Origin: Nitrososphaerota archaeon
GTDB taxonomy: Archaea; Thermoproteota; Nitrososphaeria_A; Caldarchaeales; JAVZCJ01
Length of the DNA: 58,302 nt
NCBI GenBank assembly: GCA_038817485.1
Contig: JAWAZL010000006.1
Location: 1 to 58,302, forward strand
Direction: 5' to 3'
The notes below the pieces were generated by a model. The model was not told the origin of the DNA, made no database searches, and saw only the letters and a list, made by a program, of their open reading frames with translations. Position numbers and translations under genes: made by a program. Within the stretch, counting starts at the first letter, position 1; each line of letters begins with the position of its first letter. Positions 9,998 through 37,753 of the stretch are shown here, piece after piece.

Positions 9998-10405
9998 TTA
10001 ATAAAATTCTATTTTTTCTTCTAAAAATTTTCCATTTTTATCTAATATAAATGATTTTACTTCTTTATCCCTAATTGAAATAACTACATATGAGCAATCA
10101 GGCCATGAGAAAGTTTCCTCATCTATTGATGAAAGAGAAGCTGACCAAAATGGATGGCTATGATATATTCCAACAAGTTCTAATTCAGATTTTTCTATAT
10201 CTCGAAGTATTTCATATTCTTCAATTGGATGAATTTGATATCTTCTAGGAGAATTAAAAGCATTCGTAGCTTCGTATACTTTTTTTACTATTTTTGAATT
10301 TCCAATTTTTATTCCTCCAAGCATTCCGCATGCTTCTATTGGATAAACTTCTTCACAATGCTTTAGAATCCTTTTAAAAAGTTCTTTACTAATTAATAAT
10401 ACCAT
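9998..10405 (-). CDS. Small JAMM/MPN+ metallopeptidase
   Basis: 135 residues forming a complete stand-alone JAMM domain. Glu24 (IEACGMLGG) is the catalytic acid. HSHP at 82-85, Ser92 and Asp95 make the HxH-x7-S-x2-D zinc motif. Single-domain archaeal and bacterial members (JAMM1, Mec/CysO peptidase) remove or mature ubiquitin-like and MoaD-like modifiers from a C-terminal linkage. It is distinct from the Rpn11-like JAMM protein at 30844. A MoaD-like protein ending Gly-Gly-Gly is encoded 6 kb away, so that is one possible substrate. Confidence 0.85.
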   Translation of the reverse strand: MVLLISKELFKRILKHCEEVYPIEACGMLGGIKIGNSKIVKKVYEATNAFNSPRRYQIHPIEEYEILRDIEKSELELVGIYHSHPFWSASLSSIDEETFSWPDCSYVVISIRDKEVKSFILDKNGKFLEEKIEFY

Positions 10406-10459
10406 TTTTATAATTAAAATTATTAAAAAAGATATTAATAAAATTTTTTAAAATAAAAT

Positions 10460-30054: not shown

Positions 30055-30828
30055 TTAGCCACTTTTAAGTCTTTTCCATACTAGTATTATAGCATATTCT
30101 CTTGGAATTCCTTCACTTTCAGCTATATTTGCTATATTCCCTTTTAAAATACTTTCCCATTTATCTCCATATATTGCTCCATATCTTTTTCTAAGTTCTT
30201 CATAAAGTTCTGAAGGAATTTGAGTTGAAGTAGTTAATTCATTAATTCTTTTTGGTAAATCGTTTAGGAAATTAATTTTTTCATCTATTTCTTTTATTTT
30301 ATTTCTTAATTGAAACAATTTTTGTCTTAAAAGTGGTATTTTTGCTTCCAATTCTTCTATTTTTCCAACTTTTTTAGTTTCTCCCTTCTCTTTGAATTTT
30401 AATTCCATAGTATTTACTTCAATAGTAGCTAAATAAAGATCTTCTTCAGTTTTTGAAAATTCATCCTCAATCAAACTTTTTGTAACAATTAATTTTTCCC
30501 TAATCCTTTTTGCATCTTCTAAAACTTGACTTTTTAAATCATTCCATTTTAAAAGAATCTTTTTTATAACCTTTGGATGTATATCCTCATCTCTAACAAG
30601 TTTTTGAAATACATGATCTCTAAGCTTAATTTCATTAATTTTACTCTCTATTTCTTTATATGCTTTATCTATTTCATCTAATTCTGGCCCTTCTTTTATT
30701 TCTTCTTTAATTTCTTTAACTATTATTGCTTCCTCCTCTTTAACTTCTTTTTCCTCTTCTTTTACCTCTTTAACTTCTTCTCTCTTCTCTTCCTCTTCAA
30801 TAGGCTTAATAACTATTTTTTTAGGCAT
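30055..30828 (-). CDS. Acidic coiled-coil protein next to the Rpn11-like protease
   Basis: 257 residues, no named family. The first ~50 are highly charged (repeated KEE/VKE). Long coiled coil helices follow at about residues 50-215, and the last ~40 (YEELRKRYGAIYGDKWESI through WKRL) look like a small globular domain. ATG 30828 follows the JAMM stop by 15 bases with a GTGAT site, so it shares the JAMM operon. It resembles nothing I can name with confidence. A scaffold for the protease or its membrane partners is possible. Confidence 0.65.
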   Translation of the reverse strand: MPKKIVIKPIEEEEKREEVKEVKEEEKEVKEEEAIIVKEIKEEIKEGPELDEIDKAYKEIESKINEIKLRDHVFQKLVRDEDIHPKVIKKILLKWNDLKSQVLEDAKRIREKLIVTKSLIEDEFSKTEEDLYLATIEVNTMELKFKEKGETKKVGKIEELEAKIPLLRQKLFQLRNKIKEIDEKINFLNDLPKRINELTTSTQIPSELYEELRKRYGAIYGDKWESILKGNIANIAESEGIPREYAIILVWKRLKSG

Positions 30829-30843
30829 TTTTTATCACTTTAT

Positions 30844-31644
30844 TCATGGAATACTTAAAATAAAACTTTTAATAATAATTATTATGAATGTTATTATCAA
30901 AGCTATACTTAAAAATTTAATTAATAAAAACATATAATTTTTATCTGCTTTTTCGAATTTTATTTTTGAAAAAATTTTTGAAATTTTTAATAAAATATAT
31001 TTTTTAAAAGAATTAGGAAAATATTCTATATTATTAATTTCCTTTAAAAAATATTTATTCACATCATTATCATTTATCTTATAATTTTTATCAACTTTTA
31101 AAGCATCTTGATTAGAATCTATATCTATTATATGTCTTAAATCAAGCGTATCCATTGCATATATAGTACTTTCTAAAAGTTTTGACTTTCTTATTCCAAT
31201 AGTAGTAGGTACAGTAATTACTCTATCATTTTTTCCAATTCTAAATATTTTAAATTTTATATCCATAATTTCTTTTGTTTTACTATATAATAATGGATCA
31301 ATAACTAAAGCTACTGCTTTAGGATAAAGTTTTTGATAAATTTTTTGAGTAGAAATATCTGTTCCTGAAAGAAATACACCTAAACCTGGATGAGAATGAT
31401 ACCAACCAACAATAGTTAATCCTTTTTTTTCTTTTTGCAATTTTTCAGCAATTTGTGCTTGAATTTCCTCATTTAATTCTACAAATCCTTGCTTTCCATA
31501 TTGTTCTCCAGTTACTGCATCCCATATTTCTAAAACTTGTCCTTGCATTTTCCCAATAAGTAATCCTATTACTTCTCTTTCTAAATTTGTTAAAGAATGT
31601 TTTAATATTTTACCTAATGCAAGAGGATAAATTCTTGCTTTCAA
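30844..31644 (-). CDS. Rpn11-like JAMM deubiquitinase with C-terminal membrane anchor
   Basis: 266 residues. The MPN+ domain (1-150) has Glu24 in REVIGLLIG and HSHPGLGVFLSGTD (His83, His85, Ser93, Asp96), very close to eukaryotic Rpn11, including the VGWYHSHPG context. Related archaeal enzymes process pro-Ubl and remove Ubl from targets. Unlike a simple JAMM, it ends with a hydrophobic helix (LIKFLSIALIITFIIIIIKS, about 241-264), so it is expected to be membrane-bound with the catalytic domain in the cytoplasm. TTG start; divergent from the Ubl gene. Confidence 0.93.
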   Translation of the reverse strand: MKARIYPLALGKILKHSLTNLEREVIGLLIGKMQGQVLEIWDAVTGEQYGKQGFVELNEEIQAQIAEKLQKEKKGLTIVGWYHSHPGLGVFLSGTDISTQKIYQKLYPKAVALVIDPLLYSKTKEIMDIKFKIFRIGKNDRVITVPTTIGIRKSKLLESTIYAMDTLDLRHIIDIDSNQDALKVDKNYKINDNDVNKYFLKEINNIEYFPNSFKKYILLKISKIFSKIKFEKADKNYMFLLIKFLSIALIITFIIIIIKSFILSIP

Positions 31645-31737: not shown

Positions 31738-32001
31738 ATGAAAATAAAAGTTATTCCAGCAGTAGGTGGAGGTAGTCCATTAGAATTAGAAGTTTCTCCA
31801 GAAGCTACTATTGGAGCTATAAAAGCTAAAGTTTGCGCTATTAAACGTCTTCCACCAGATACAACTAGATTAACTTATAGAGGTAGAGCTGTAAAAGATA
31901 CCGACACTCTTGCAAATTTAGGAGTTTCAGAAGGGGATAAATTAGTTTTGATAACAAGAACTGTAGGGGGCTTTATTAATGCAAACTGCAGAGCTCCCTG
32001 A
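31738..32001 (+). CDS. Ubiquitin-like modifier, precursor with nine-residue tail
   Basis: 87 residues. The fold is the ubiquitin beta-grasp: MKIKVIPAVG, then EATIGAIKAKVCAIKRLPPD for helix 1 and LTYRGRAVKDTDTL for the loop before strand 5. Gly77-Gly78 (RTVGG) is the conjugation end, followed by nine residues, FINANCRAP, which must be removed. Lysines at positions 2, 4, 29, 31, 36, 53 and 68 could in principle form chains. The last 23 bases overlap the E2 start, so the two are translationally coupled. Resembles the Caldiarchaeum subterraneum Ubl. Confidence 0.95.
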   Translation: MKIKVIPAVGGGSPLELEVSPEATIGAIKAKVCAIKRLPPDTTRLTYRGRAVKDTDTLANLGVSEGDKLVLITRTVGGFINANCRAP

Positions 32002-32458
32002 AATAATGTGGGAGAAAAGACTTGCATTAGAATATAAATTAATGAGAGAAAATGAACCATTATTTGATATAGTTGATAATGATTTAACTCATTATATGGG
32101 TGTTATAGTAGGCTCAGGAATATATGAAAATGGATACTTCAGAGTAGAAATCATTGTACCTAGATCTTTTCCATTTACTCCACCAGAAATTATTTGGCAT
32201 ACAAGAATATGGCATCCTAATTTTTCTGATGAACAACCGGCTAGAATATGCGAATCTCTTTTAAAAGCAGATTGGTCCCCCTCAATTCATCTTTTTTCAA
32301 TTATAGAAACTTTAAGAAATTTACTTAATGAACCTAATCCAGATGATCCATTAAATTCTATTGCTGCTATGGAATTAAAATATAATCCAGAAATTTTTAA
32401 AGCACATGTTAGACAATATATTCTTGCTTTTGCAAGAGAAGAACAGGCTTTTATTTAA
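31979..32458 (+). CDS. E2 ubiquitin-conjugating-like enzyme
   Basis: 159 residues with the complete UBC fold layout: PRSFPFTPPEI, HPN at 79-81, the catalytic Cys91 in ARICESLL, then ADWSPS and LLNEPNPDDPLN. The HPN and the WSP motif downstream of the cysteine match eukaryotic E2 enzymes. It accepts the Ubl from E1 on Cys91 and passes it to the target with a RING protein. ATG 31979 follows a GGGGG site within the Ubl tail codons. Length and motifs suggest an active enzyme. Confidence 0.95.
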   Translation: MQTAELPEIMWEKRLALEYKLMRENEPLFDIVDNDLTHYMGVIVGSGIYENGYFRVEIIVPRSFPFTPPEIIWHTRIWHPNFSDEQPARICESLLKADWSPSIHLFSIIETLRNLLNEPNPDDPLNSIAAMELKYNPEIFKAHVRQYILAFAREEQAFI

Positions 32459-32480: not shown

Positions 32481-33647
32481 ATGTCATCTATGGAAAGATA
32501 TGATAGACAAATTATTATTGAAGGTTGGGATCAAAATAAAGTAAGTTCAGCTAAAATATTAATTGTAGGTGTAGGAGCTACAGGATGTGAAGTAGCTAAA
32601 AATCTTGCTTTAGTTGGCATAGGTAAATTAATTCTTGTTGATATGGATGTTATTGAATTATCAAATTTAAGTAGACAAATGCTTTTTCATAAAGGAGATA
32701 TAGGTAAACCAAAAGCAGAAGTAGCTAAAAAAAGAATTAAAAGAATGAATCCGTATGTTAAAGTTGAATCATATAATATAGATGTGCATTTTCTTGAAGG
32801 TAAAATTTTTGAAGAAGTGGATGTTATATGTTCTTGTGTTGATAATTGGCCTACTAGAAGATGGTTAAATTCCTTAGCTGTAGAATTAAATAAGCCATTA
32901 GTAGATGGAGCAATGGAAGGTTTTTATGGAAATGTTCAAGTTGTTATTCCTGGAGTAACTTCATGCATTGAATGCCATGGAGAAAATTTAATTCCAAATG
33001 AAGTTCAATTAGCTGAATGCACTTTGAAAAGAAGAACACCAAAAGATTTATTCAACGATTTAATTCAACAAGGCTTAGAAATAGATTTTGAGATGGTCTC
33101 AAAAATTTTCGATAGTGGCTTTAAAACTATATATGATATTAAATATGCTTCTATGGAACATCTTAAAAAAATTGATGAAGAATCAAGAAATTTTATATTA
33201 AACCTACAAGAAAAACTTAAACCTAAGCTTCCTGCTCTTCAAACAATTGCTGCAACAATTGCTGGTATACAATCACAAGAGGTTCTTAAAATTATTCATA
33301 AAGAAAGTATTGGTGAAATAATTAAAGGATTATTGGTTTATGATTCTAAAGCAAATTCATTTTCAATAATCGATCTTGAAAAAAATGAGAATTGTTTTGT
33401 ATGTGGAAAAGCTTTTAGAACAGGATATGTTGAATTTAGAGTTTCTCTTAATGAAACAATTCTAGATTTAAAAGAAAGAATAGCAAAATCTTTTAGTTTA
33501 CCAGACCCAGAAATACAATATAAAACAAAACTTTTAAGAGATGATCAAAAGCTTTCAGAATTAAATATTAAAAATGGAGATTTCATGCATATAAATACAA
33601 CAAGAAGATTTTCTCCTCTTACAATTAAAATTATTATTGAAGATTAA
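32481..33647 (+). CDS. E1-like activating enzyme with HhH-like insert and C-terminal ubiquitin-fold domain
   Basis: 388 residues. The adenylation domain has the ATP loop GVGATG (30-35) and VDMD; CIEC (162-165) and CFVC (305-308) hold the zinc. Cys180 in AECTLKRRTP is the likely catalytic cysteine. Residues ~190-246 contain SGFKTIYDIKYASMEHLKKI, a helix-hairpin-helix-like segment where other E1s have a catalytic-cysteine half-domain. Residues 316-374 form a ubiquitin-fold domain like the UFD used by eukaryotic E1s to recruit E2. It activates the Ubl at its Gly-Gly end. Start ATG 32481 with GAGG upstream. Confidence 0.93.
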   Translation: MSSMERYDRQIIIEGWDQNKVSSAKILIVGVGATGCEVAKNLALVGIGKLILVDMDVIELSNLSRQMLFHKGDIGKPKAEVAKKRIKRMNPYVKVESYNIDVHFLEGKIFEEVDVICSCVDNWPTRRWLNSLAVELNKPLVDGAMEGFYGNVQVVIPGVTSCIECHGENLIPNEVQLAECTLKRRTPKDLFNDLIQQGLEIDFEMVSKIFDSGFKTIYDIKYASMEHLKKIDEESRNFILNLQEKLKPKLPALQTIAATIAGIQSQEVLKIIHKESIGEIIKGLLVYDSKANSFSIIDLEKNENCFVCGKAFRTGYVEFRVSLNETILDLKERIAKSFSLPDPEIQYKTKLLRDDQKLSELNIKNGDFMHINTTRRFSPLTIKIIIED

Positions 33648-33728: not shown

Positions 33729-33971
33729 ATGAAGATTATTTTAAAAGAAGGGAGAAGTTTAGGTTTTTGGGATTGGACTATTAAAAAAAAGGCTTTTATT
33801 AAAGAAGAATTAAAATGTGTTATATGCATGTTAGAAATAAATCCTAATGATAGCATATATAAATGTCCAAATTGTGGAGCAATAGGGCATCGTGCATGTT
33901 TCCTTGAATGGAATAGATTAAGAGGAACATGTCCTATATGTAGAAGATCTATTCTTGAGGTGGTTGTTTAA
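33729..33971 (+). CDS. Small RING finger protein (candidate E3)
   Basis: 80 residues. Eight zinc ligands, spaced C30-x2-C33-x12-C46-x2-C49-x4-H54-x2-C57-x10-C68-x2-C71, form a RING-like domain with Trp61 in the conserved hydrophobic spot and a CPIC at the end. The Caldiarchaeum locus encodes a similar small RING. It should help E2 transfer the Ubl to targets. The 81 bases upstream contain an AT-rich inverted repeat, which may hold an internal promoter. Its stop overlaps the next ATG (TAATG). Confidence 0.92.
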   Translation: MKIILKEGRSLGFWDWTIKKKAFIKEELKCVICMLEINPNDSIYKCPNCGAIGHRACFLEWNRLRGTCPICRRSILEVVV

Positions 33972-34303
33972 TGGAAGAAAATAGTGAAAGTAAAAATAGT
34001 AGCGAAGTATATGAAATAGAATTGTCTTATATAGATACTCCTAAAGGTAAAGTAGCTACATATGAAAGTAGTAAAAAAATAGCAGAAGCATTAATGCTAA
34101 TATCTAGTGAAAATGAAAAAATAATTGAAAAAATTTCTCAAATTGAATCCTCAGGCATTAGTCCTGAAAAAATATCTTTTATAGAAAATAGTTTAAAAGA
34201 AATTAAAGAAATGCTAATAGAAATAGCAGCTCAATTAGATGTATTAAGTGATACCTTACAAGAATTAACAGAAATTGTTACTAAAATTAAAAAAGAAGAA
34301 TAA
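33971..34303 (+). CDS. Coiled-coil protein coupled to the RING gene
   Basis: 110 residues, no family. It is acidic, with a short strand region (VYEIELSYIDTPKGKVATY) and then a coiled coil from about residue 35 to the end. Translation is coupled to the RING gene by a one-base TAATG overlap, so it could be a partner that forms or positions a RING complex. Alternatively it is a small structural protein unrelated to ubiquitin work. Confidence 0.6.
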   Translation: MEENSESKNSSEVYEIELSYIDTPKGKVATYESSKKIAEALMLISSENEKIIEKISQIESSGISPEKISFIENSLKEIKEMLIEIAAQLDVLSDTLQELTEIVTKIKKEE

Positions 34304-34304
34304 G

Positions 34305-35150
34305 TTAAGGTTTTAATATAGCACTTCTCATATCTTTTACAATTTTTTCTAATCTATTCCTTTCTTCTTCTAATCTTTTTATCTCCTTTTCTAAAGCTTC
34401 CTTTCTTTTCTCTAATTCTTGGACTTTTAATTCAAGAGTCGAACTTTTTTCTTCAATAGCTTTAAATTCCTTCTCTTTTTCTTGCAATTTAGTTATAGCT
34501 TCAGTTAGTTCTTTCTCTTTTTTAATAAGTCTTTCAAGTCTTATTTCTCTAAATTTAAGAGATCTATCCATTTTTCTAATTTGCTCTTCAAGCATTAATG
34601 AAGTATTTTTTATTGTTTGAAGATAATTTGAAGAAAGTTCTTTAATTTCTTCTTCCAATTTTAATTTCTTGTCTTCTAATTCTTTTATTGAAGATTGTAA
34701 TAAATTAAAACTTTCTTCCTTTTCTTTTATTTCATTCATCCACTTCTTTATTTCTTCTTTCATATTTACTAATTCAGCTTTTTCTTTAGAAATTTTTTCT
34801 AAATCTCCTCTAATAATTTCTCTTTCTTTTTGAAGAACATCAAGTAAATGTTGTAAACCTTCTTGAATAGATACTATTCTTAATTCATAATCTTCAACTC
34901 TTGTTAATATTGAAGATAATTTTTCAGCTTTAGTAGTAATGTTTTCAATTTTACTAAATACTTCTGGATTATAATTTGTATAATTACTTATTTTTTCCGA
35001 CAATTCTAAAACTTTATTTTCTAAATCCTCAATTCTTCCATTAAATTTACTTATTTCTAATGATATAGTCTCTTTTAATTCAGATAATTTTGCACGTATT
35101 TCTTTTAATATTGCTTCATCTCTTTCTTTAGTTGATCCTAGTATCCCCAA
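34305..35150 (-). CDS. Long coiled-coil protein, 281 aa
   Basis: Nearly the whole sequence is predicted coiled coil (heptads with Leu and Glu/Lys), beginning MGILGSTKERDEAILKEIRA. No family is recognised; SMC-like or myosin-like hits would be compositional. No signal or membrane helix. It converges with the coiled-coil gene coupled to the RING, with stops one base apart. Three coiled-coil genes surround this modifier locus. Confidence 0.65.
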   Translation of the reverse strand: MGILGSTKERDEAILKEIRAKLSELKETISLEISKFNGRIEDLENKVLELSEKISNYTNYNPEVFSKIENITTKAEKLSSILTRVEDYELRIVSIQEGLQHLLDVLQKEREIIRGDLEKISKEKAELVNMKEEIKKWMNEIKEKEESFNLLQSSIKELEDKKLKLEEEIKELSSNYLQTIKNTSLMLEEQIRKMDRSLKFREIRLERLIKKEKELTEAITKLQEKEKEFKAIEEKSSTLELKVQELEKRKEALEKEIKRLEEERNRLEKIVKDMRSAILKP

Positions 35151-35293: not shown

Positions 35294-36019
35294 ATGTATT
35301 GGAGTATTGAAGAAGCTGAATCTAGATTATTTAGAATGGGTTCTCTTACAGCTATAATTGGAGCTGTACATATTTTTTCACTTATTTTAAATTGGTATGT
35401 TTATACAAGCGATAGTATTCAATCTATTGCAATTCAAGGATATATGATTAATGAAGTTTTATTTTTATCTGTTTTTGGTGGAGTTTTAGCTGGTTTAGCT
35501 GCTCTTTCAACATTTTTAACAAAAAAATTATCTCAAATGAAGAATGTTGAAGCATTTTGCGCATTTGTAGGAGGAATTATAGCTTTAATATCTCCTATAT
35601 ATATGATATTTATAAAAATACCTAAACTTGGAACAGGATATTATGATGTAGGTTTATTCATTTCTATACTTTCTGCAATTAGCTTATTAATTTCAGGCAT
35701 AATAATATCTTTTATACCAACAAGATTCGAAGTAATACCTGCACCTGCTCCAAGTACAACTTTGCCTACTGGAATTCCTTCTCCAACTCCTCAAACTCTT
35801 ACTCAAATTCCTAGACAAACTACTGTAATGATTCCTACTGATGATTTTCCAATAGGTGCTATGTGTACAATTTGTCTTCAACCACTTGAAGTTGGCTCAA
35901 CTGCTAAATGTAAAGCTTGTGGAGCATTATTCCATCAAGGATGTATAGATGCATGGGTTGAATTAAATAGAGTTTGTCCAAATTGTAATACTCCTGTTGA
36001 ATATTATTCAATAGAGTAG
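35294..36019 (+). CDS. Membrane-anchored RING protein (candidate membrane E3)
   Basis: 241 residues: four predicted membrane helices (about 15-35, 50-72, 85-107, 118-141), a Pro/Thr-rich linker (145-180), and a C-terminal RING with ligands C191-x2-C194-x11-C206-x2-C209-x4-H214-x2-C217-x10-C228-x2-C231. Apart from one gap length this matches the small RING at 33729 exactly, including Trp221. It is expected in the cell membrane with the RING inside the cell. The GlyRS gene follows on the same strand. I recognise no named family for the membrane part. Confidence 0.85.
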   Translation: MYWSIEEAESRLFRMGSLTAIIGAVHIFSLILNWYVYTSDSIQSIAIQGYMINEVLFLSVFGGVLAGLAALSTFLTKKLSQMKNVEAFCAFVGGIIALISPIYMIFIKIPKLGTGYYDVGLFISILSAISLLISGIIISFIPTRFEVIPAPAPSTTLPTGIPSPTPQTLTQIPRQTTVMIPTDDFPIGAMCTICLQPLEVGSTAKCKACGALFHQGCIDAWVELNRVCPNCNTPVEYYSIE

Positions 36020-36031
36020 GAGAGAAAAAAT

Positions 36032-37753
36032 TTGAATAAAGAAAGCAAAGATAAATTCCTATCTCTTTTAAAAAGAAGAGGCTTCCTTTGGCCTTCTTAT
36101 GAAATTTATGGTGGATTAGCAGGATTTATAACATATGGTCCTTTAGGAGTTAAATTGAAGAGAAAAATAGAAGATTTATGGCGTAATATTTTTATTAAAA
36201 AGCATGGATTTATTGAAATAGATGCTCCAACTATTGGACCAATTGAAATGTATGAAGCAACAGGCTTTTTAGAATCTTTTAAAGATAAAGTAGGTACTTG
36301 TATTAAATGTAATAGAAAATGGAGAATTGATCATTTAATTGAAGAACAAACAAAAATACCTTCTTTAGAAATTGAAAAATTACCTATTGAAAAAATACAA
36401 GAAATTATAGAAAATGAAAATGTTAAATGTCCAATTTGTGGAGGAGAAATAAGAAATATTTCATTCCATAGCTTAATGTTTAAAACTACTGTAGGGCCAT
36501 TTGAAGATAGGATAGATTTTTTAAGACCAGAAACCGCGCAAGGTATTTTTACAGAATTTATAAAAGAATATGAATTATCTAGAAAAAAACTTCCGATAGG
36601 AGTAGCTCAAATAGGTAAGTGTTTTAGAAATGAGATTTCTCCAAGACAAGGACCAATACGTTTAAGAGAATTTACAATAATGGAATTAGAATTAATGTTT
36701 GATCCTGAAAATCCTGAATGTCCATATCTAAAAGAAGTAATAAATGAGAAAGTAAAAGTTCTTACAGCTTCTCAAAGATTAAACAATATTAATGAACCTA
36801 AAGAATATTCTTTAGAAGAATTAATTTCTAATAAAATTGTTAAACAAGATTGGCAAGCATACTTTATGTATTTATCAAATAAATTCATTAATATGCTTGG
36901 TATTCCAAATGATAAAACATTCTTTTTAGAAAAACTTCCAGAAGAAAGAGCTCATTATGCACAACAAGTATTTGATCAACTTGTTTATAGTGAGATATGG
37001 GGATGGATTGAAGTTTCTGGCCATGCATATAGAAGCGATTTTGATTTATCCCGTCATTCTTTAAAAAGCGGAATTGAATTGAAAGCTTTTAGAAAATATT
37101 CTATTCCTAAAAAAGTTAAGAAAATTAATATTAAACCTAATATTAAAAAAATCAAAGAATTTTTTGGAGATAAATCAAGTATAATTTTATCAAAATTAAG
37201 TAATATTGATAATAAAGAAATTGAAGAAAAAATTAATAAAAATGGATATATAAAAATTGATGATATTGTTTTATCTAAAGAATTATTCGAAATTATAGAA
37301 ATAGAAGAAACTTTACATGGAGAAAGCTTTATTCCACATGTTGTTGAACCATCTTTTGGAGTTGATAGAGTTACTTATATTACTTTAGAATATGCTTATA
37401 GTGAAAAGGAAAATAGAATAGTAATGAATATTCCTAAAGAAGTAGCTCCTATAGAAATTGCAGTATTTCCTTTATTAGAATCAAAAAATCTTATTGAAAA
37501 ATCCATTGAAATCTATAATTTAATTATGGAAAATGGTTTTGAAGCTATATATGATGAATCTGGATATATTGGTAGAAGATATATGAGAGCTGATGAACAA
37601 GGGATACCTATTTGTATTACAATAGATCATCAAACTATTGAAGATAATACTGTAACTTTTAGAGATAGAAATACATGGCTTCAAAAAAGGGTTCCTATAA
37701 AAGATATTATAAAAGAATTAAATATTATTTTTAAGAGAGAAAGACATTTATAA
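36032..37753 (+). CDS. glyS: Glycyl-tRNA synthetase
   Basis: 573 residues, class II GlyRS of the archaeal/eukaryotic type. GGLAGFITYGPLG near the N-terminus, ATGFLESFKDKVGTC with two CxxC pairs, RPETAQGIF, and the C-terminal anticodon domain (FRDRNTWLQKRV) are all in place. The start is TTG with a purine-rich site upstream. It follows the membrane RING gene with 12 bases between and could be read together with it. Confidence 0.95.
   Translation: MNKESKDKFLSLLKRRGFLWPSYEIYGGLAGFITYGPLGVKLKRKIEDLWRNIFIKKHGFIEIDAPTIGPIEMYEATGFLESFKDKVGTCIKCNRKWRIDHLIEEQTKIPSLEIEKLPIEKIQEIIENENVKCPICGGEIRNISFHSLMFKTTVGPFEDRIDFLRPETAQGIFTEFIKEYELSRKKLPIGVAQIGKCFRNEISPRQGPIRLREFTIMELELMFDPENPECPYLKEVINEKVKVLTASQRLNNINEPKEYSLEELISNKIVKQDWQAYFMYLSNKFINMLGIPNDKTFFLEKLPEERAHYAQQVFDQLVYSEIWGWIEVSGHAYRSDFDLSRHSLKSGIELKAFRKYSIPKKVKKINIKPNIKKIKEFFGDKSSIILSKLSNIDNKEIEEKINKNGYIKIDDIVLSKELFEIIEIEETLHGESFIPHVVEPSFGVDRVTYITLEYAYSEKENRIVMNIPKEVAPIEIAVFPLLESKNLIEKSIEIYNLIMENGFEAIYDESGYIGRRYMRADEQGIPICITIDHQTIEDNTVTFRDRNTWLQKRVPIKDIIKELNIIFKRERHL

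Follow-up and report, generated by a model that had tools for sequence, protein, structure and literature searches.

The ubiquitin systems of archaea are regarded as precursors of the ubiquitin-proteasome system of eukaryotes; no proteasome lid is known from archaea. A biochemically tested archaeal enzyme that removes ubiquitin is CsRpn11 of Ca. Caldarchaeum subterraneum (PDB 6FJU/6FNN), a JAMM protease that cleaves pro-ubiquitin after Gly-Gly and takes ubiquitin off proteins (PMC6043591, PMC5654768). It crystallised at full length as a soluble protein, with residues 174-202 unresolved (PMC6043591). Eukaryotic Rpn11/PSMD14 shares the JAMM fold and the catalytic residues but is held in the proteasome lid through its N- and C-terminal helices and Ins-2 (PMC6043591) and has no membrane anchor; Ins-2, the N-terminal helix and lid partners such as Rpn8 are the eukaryotic differences from CsRpn11 (PMC6043591). 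Deubiquitinases also work at eukaryotic membrane surfaces, among them the transmembrane (TM)-anchored isoform of USP19 and the ESCRT-bound JAMM protein AMSH, the latter being recruited by MIT/STAM binding rather than by an anchor of its own (PMC5484354). Here we compare with these systems a JAMM protein encoded in a 58,302-nucleotide stretch of DNA (the window) from a hot-spring archaeon of the same class as C. subterraneum.

A CsRpn11-type JAMM with a hydrophobic C-terminal helix

The window JAMM has 266 residues, reading from a TTG codon at 31644, which aligns with the starts of its orthologues (alignment A1), to a stop codon at 30844-30846. Pfam recognises a JAB domain (E 2e-20), and the best solved relative is CsRpn11 (6fju, E 6e-68), followed by yeast and human Rpn11, CSN5, BRCC36 and AMSH; a Foldseek search with the predicted model likewise ranks 6fju first (E 4e-25, 60% identity over 168 columns, TM-score 0.90 by target). 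The catalytic E24 together with the HxHx7SxxD motif makes up a complete JAMM zinc site, and E24, H83, H85, S93 and D96 are invariant over 20 homologues in alignment A1 and 44 in alignment A2. The protein thus combines a JAB/MPN fold whose best match is CsRpn11, the intact catalytic residues and a gene adjoining those for ubiquitin, E2, E1 and a RING protein, as expected of a CsRpn11-type archaeal JAMM. Because its nearest match in the PDB is CsRpn11 and the divergent gene order is shared across the class, the window JAMM is, on sequence grounds, an orthologue of this tested deubiquitinase; from that orthology it would be expected to cleave pro-ubiquitin and ubiquitin conjugates as CsRpn11 does. 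An earlier note on this DNA, made from its letters and open reading frames, had called the protein an Rpn11-like JAMM, and the domain, the structural match and the five active-site residues bear this out; its further claim of the same chemistry as Rpn11 holds for the match in domain, catalytic residues and predicted fold to soluble CsRpn11 and to Rpn11.

What sets the window JAMM apart is its tail. CsRpn11, 202 residues long, lacks a membrane segment and ends in a short basic helix, whereas the window JAMM carries the hydrophobic span MFLLIKFLSIALIITFIIIII at residues 238-258, confirming the strongly hydrophobic stretch of the earlier note, which had placed it at about 241-264. Its best 19-mer has a Kyte-Doolittle mean of 3.04, the biological-scale dG summed over the 21 residues is -4.5, and the N-terminal flank carries net positive charge. 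This hydropathy score was reached in 10 of 20,000 shuffles of residues 151-266 and in 6 of 5,000 draws of random codons with the AT-rich composition of the gene. Of the 59 window genes, no other has its TM-like sequence restricted to the C-terminus; as in tail-anchored proteins, the sole TM segment is a hydrophobic helix at the very end of the chain. AlphaFold2 models residues 235-264 as one 30-residue helix (pLDDT about 79-85), beside a confident JAMM core (mostly above 90) and a linker that is poorly modelled around 170-190. The linker (about 166-234) does precede the helix, as had been noted, but it is not simply hydrophilic: it has two predicted helices, 192-204 and 211-227, the second basic and amphipathic. 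Hydropathy, dG, charge and the AlphaFold2 structure together make it very likely that the C-terminal helix is a membrane anchor, and the net positive charge of the flank before it suggests an N-in topology with the catalytic domain in the cytoplasm.

A match to the window JAMM is present in all 44 genomes of the class, and the tail in two of them, those of the window and of the other species of its genus. The earlier note had implied that the anchor is shared by the family, a view to be given up if most homologues lacked it, and within the class the comparison of homologues found just that: 41 orthologues (one cut by a contig end), soluble CsRpn11 included, have no tail and score at most 1.21 in that region. 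A class-wide TM tail is thereby ruled out. Most of the tailless orthologues finish with a short basic helix, for example LLGKAKKLFGA, LFERAKKLLK or IVKFFSKTKKLL; locus L055 matches the aligned CsRpn11 sequence and, like it, encodes 202 residues. The window JAMM retains the counterpart of this helix at 211-227, with the TM helix appended after it, and is a variant of the known CsRpn11 kind with an added membrane tail. The sister-species protein is 90% identical and has the same tail with its stop codon at the homologous place, which rules out a frameshift or an assembly artefact as the source of the tail. Across 32 codons of the tail, the two species differ by five nonsynonymous and two synonymous changes (dN/dS about 0.6), too few to demonstrate strong purifying selection; a point against an anchor is K243 inside the span, which is T in the sister species. 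Despite these substitutions the hydrophobicity is unchanged (3.04 vs 3.02).

The ubiquitin gene cluster and its membrane RING

The JAMM gene is divergent from genes for ubiquitin, E2, E1 with a ubiquitin-like (Ubl) tail, a small RING protein, two further proteins and a four-TM RING protein (Table 1). This order is conserved across much of the class in our neighbourhood survey, and the same core gene order has been described for C. subterraneum (PMC5654768), where CsRpn11 has the same divergent position beside ubiquitin, E2, E1 and srfp and the same kind of pro-ubiquitin substrate. The two proteins before the membrane RING are mostly uncharacterised and are kept in the cluster across much of the class. 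The charged protein downstream of the JAMM gene has no Pfam or NCBIfam match. After the membrane RING comes a glycyl-tRNA synthetase-like gene, whose counterpart frame at the same place in relatives is only 36-39% identical.

Table 1. Features of the JAMM and ubiquitin locus, with coordinates in the window
Feature	Position	Strand	Basis
Rpn11-like JAMM metalloprotease with very likely C-terminal membrane anchor	30844..31644	-	ORF; Pfam JAB; CsRpn11 6fju; Foldseek
JAMM core, residues 1-150	31195..31644	-	AlphaFold pLDDT about 87-98; alignment A1
E24 of the JAMM zinc site	31573-31575	-	alignments A1 and A2
HxHx7SxxD motif, residues 83-96 (H83, H85, S93, D96)	31357..31398	-	alignments A1 and A2
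Basic amphipathic helix (residues 211-227), corresponding to the helix that ends the soluble orthologues	30964..31014	-	AlphaFold; alignment; helical moment (single-sequence shuffles: not significant)
Predicted transmembrane helix, residues 235-264 (core 238-258), N-in by charge	30853..30942	-	hydropathy, dG, shuffles, AlphaFold, conservation in sister species (G001)
Charged 257-aa protein, downstream of the JAMM gene in many class genomes	30055..30828	-	neighbourhood survey
Ubiquitin-like modifier with pro-peptide FINANCRAP (nine residues) after Gly-Gly, expected JAMM substrate	31738..32001	+	Pfam ubiquitin E 2e-12; tail comparison
E2 ubiquitin-conjugating enzyme	31979..32458	+	Pfam UQ_con E 4e-29
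E1-like activating enzyme with C-terminal Ubl domain	32481..33647	+	Pfam ThiF E 2e-65, ubiquitin E 3e-9
Small RING finger protein (E3, srfp)	33729..33971	+	Pfam zf-RING_2 E 3e-10
110-aa protein	33971-34303	+	
281-aa coiled coil	34305-35150	-	
Four-TM membrane protein with C-terminal RING-H2, class-wide	35294..36019	+	Pfam zf-RING_2 E 8e-11; TM counts
Glycyl-tRNA synthetase-like gene	36032-37753	+	
Second JAB gene, 149-aa frame	10001-10447	-	

The window genome has two JAB genes only. The second is remote, and an initial hydrophobic stretch in its frame may precede the true start. Since this other JAB protein is short and remote and the ubiquitin carries a pro-peptide, the window JAMM is probably the ubiquitin processor and deconjugase of its genome. 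Several genomes of the f3 and f4 families keep the JAMM gene but have a ubiquitin that already ends in Gly-Gly (loci L035-L038, L040-L042, L059, L061-L066 and L068-L070), and therefore the JAMM cannot be needed for maturation there.

The earlier note had read the membrane RING and the anchored JAMM together as a hint of a membrane-centred system, a link that our survey leaves weak. The four-TM RING is found in all nine genomes searched and at many cluster loci, in every family of the class that was checked, whether or not the JAMM there is anchored. The sister species has its copy, 98% identical, on a separate contig. Because of this breadth the four-TM RING is independent of the anchored JAMM, and a co-evolved pair is ruled out. 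In its own right, the four-TM RING is a candidate archaeal membrane E3, and we saw neither a second RING nor a membrane RING mentioned in the paper on ubiquitylation in C. subterraneum. ESCRT-III-like (Snf7) genes are also present in the window genome; nothing ties them directly to the JAMM.

A proposed role for the anchor

The domain, active-site residues, fold, helix, operon and distribution were all established computationally, and from them we propose, as the account we think fairly probable, that the window JAMM serves as the ubiquitin protease of the adjacent operon, a CsRpn11 orthologue that a single C-terminal TM helix holds on the cytoplasmic side of the cell membrane, where it would process pro-ubiquitin and deubiquitinate proteins near the membrane. 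In this scheme we infer catalysis from CsRpn11, as well as membrane insertion, topology and substrate bias. E24, H83, H85 and D96 of the JAMM domain would hold zinc and water; the enzyme would trim the nine-residue pro-peptide after the Gly-Gly of ubiquitin and remove ubiquitin from substrates. The helix, most likely gained in this genus and placed behind the one that ends the soluble orthologues, would insert in the membrane with the JAMM domain facing the cytoplasm, and the linker, about 70 residues long, would give that domain room to range over the inner surface. Held in this way, the enzyme would favour conjugates of membrane proteins: the anchor may bias it towards targets at or close to the membrane, including membrane proteins ubiquitylated by the RINGs of the operon. 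Such a bias would be comparable to that of AMSH and of USP19, a cysteine protease of another fold, at eukaryotic membranes.

An addition to this model, compatible with it and put forward tentatively, is that a weak membrane contact is ancestral, made by the short basic amphipathic terminal helix (H5 of CsRpn11, e.g., LLGKAKKLFGA), and was strengthened in this genus by the TM helix. Such a helix forms the C-terminus of most of the 41 orthologues in the class, the window JAMM retains its counterpart just before the TM helix, and the membrane RING of the operon is class-wide; the helix is disordered in the CsRpn11 crystal, falling within the unresolved residues 174-202 (PMC6043591). Against this, the helical moments are mostly not above those of shuffles for single sequences, the helix could instead bind a protein, and full-length CsRpn11 crystallised as a soluble protein (PMC6043591).

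It would be less likely, in our estimate, that the anchor is a recent and near-neutral addition, so that the protein sits at the membrane with no role beyond that of its soluble orthologues. The restriction of the anchor to two closely related species is a point against a role for it and in favour of this reading; the substitutions are few for judging selection, and soluble orthologues serve the same operon elsewhere. The anchor must be dispensable for the chemistry, because soluble CsRpn11 processes pro-ubiquitin and deubiquitinates without a membrane. On the other hand, hydrophobicity has been maintained in both species despite the changes, and the same design is repeated in Asgard archaea (see below).

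We regard it as improbable that the hydrophobic helix packs on a partner (within an oligomer, on the proteasome or on some other subunit) instead of being embedded in the membrane. Eukaryotic Rpn11 does sit in the lid via its C-terminal helices, and CsRpn11 forms a crystal dimer through H1 and H4 (PMC6043591). A stretch of 21 residues with one charge, rich in I, L and F, at the extreme C-terminus and with a basic N-flank is not what such packing would predict, and the Asgard counterparts, similarly hydrophobic yet unrelated in sequence and all near the C-terminus, fit a membrane. Lid-type helices are amphipathic, which also counts against packing on a partner.

Tailed JAMMs in Asgard archaea and the origin of the anchor

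Named genomes and then 227 Asgard genomes were scanned for Rpn11-like JAMMs, and 80 Asgard loci were fetched, 63 of which encode a terminal hydrophobic (TM-like) helix. The tails score 2.0-3.1, their best 19-mers stop 0-12 residues short of the C-terminus, and they occur in Heimdall-, Hel-, Frey- and Wukongarchaeota, among others (e.g., Ca. Heimdallarchaeum endolithica L135, Helarchaeota L133 and Freyarchaeota L132). Tailed loci of the scan include L217, L218, L220-L238, L240-L269, L271-L277, L279, L282, L283, L288 and L289 (not L219, L239 or L270). Like the window JAMM, these are Rpn11-like proteins with a single C-terminal hydrophobic helix and an intact active site, its residues being invariant in nine aligned tailed proteins; of the eukaryotic families, their profile matches Rpn11 best (1.9e-32), ahead of CSN5 (7e-25), AMSH (6e-15) and BRCC36 (2e-12). 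They differ from it in having unrelated tail sequences, a separate position in the tree and no adjoining ubiquitin, E1 or E2 gene found: profiles of these matched in the flanking DNA of 0 of the 63, a provisional count given that some contigs are short, and none of their several lineage-specific gene neighbours matches them. The Asgard JAMMs that do adjoin ubiquitin, E1 or E2 genes lack the tail, and three genomes (G401, G402 and G480) have both a tailless operon JAMM and a tailed one. In at least five others (G399, G435, G468, G476 and G573), the tailed protein is the sole JAB gene found, the absence of a paralogue being provisional since these metagenome-assembled genomes are incomplete; E2 genes are nevertheless present in them. 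Two archaeal JAB proteins of 500-600 residues (L149 and L166) show a different architecture, with an internal TM segment after the JAB domain, and a plasmid search gave only a remote cyanobacterial JAB.

A tree was computed from 149 columns of the JAMM cores, with yeast Rpn11, taken from a PDB alignment, as the only eukaryotic input. Within the class, the genus falls inside a set of tailless proteins (support 95/85 for the clade of 15 rows), apart from the tailed Asgard groups, and tailless proteins of family f3 (Calditenuaceae-type) branch outside it; no common ancestry of the genus with tailed Asgard JAMMs to the exclusion of tailless ones was recovered. Tail state needs eight changes over the whole tree set, and the AU test rejects a single clade of tailed Rpn11-like rows (p-AU 4e-39). 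Together, tree and AU test rule out a single origin with the Asgard tails, and by these sequence comparisons an independent gain of the anchor in the genus is the most likely history. We are unsure of the deep branching order, because columns are few, branches long and the root not inferred. Even allowing for an unrooted tree of so few columns, a tail inherited from the ancestor of archaeal Rpn11-like JAMMs, common to the Asgard proteins and lost many times in the class, is very improbable: tailed is the majority state among the fetched Asgard loci, but the nested position of the genus with tailless f3 proteins outside it, the rejected single clade, the several losses that retention would require in the class and the tailless operon-linked Asgard JAMMs all stand against it.

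The published JAMM map could not show such tails, because its sequences were trimmed to the JAMM core before clustering (PMC6043591). In the literature we searched, with most subscription-only papers and bioRxiv preprints outside it, we found no description of a tail-anchored archaeal JAMM.

CsRpn11 has so far been studied as a free soluble enzyme, and Asgard archaea are the closest known relatives of eukaryotes. The anchored window JAMM is not a one-off, since by sequence the same tailed design recurs, apparently independently, in most of the fetched Asgard Rpn11-like loci. Because the tailed protein is the sole JAB found in several Asgard genomes, a bolder idea, which we hold to be speculative and somewhat unlikely, is that tail-anchored Rpn11-type JAMMs are a widespread and repeatedly evolved archaeal solution, and that a pre-eukaryotic Rpn11-type enzyme may have acted at membranes, alongside ubiquitin and ESCRT, before recruitment to the lid, COP9 and ESCRT (AMSH). 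The window JAMM and the dozens of separate Asgard proteins make early ubiquitin removal at membranes, besides degradation, a testable proposition.
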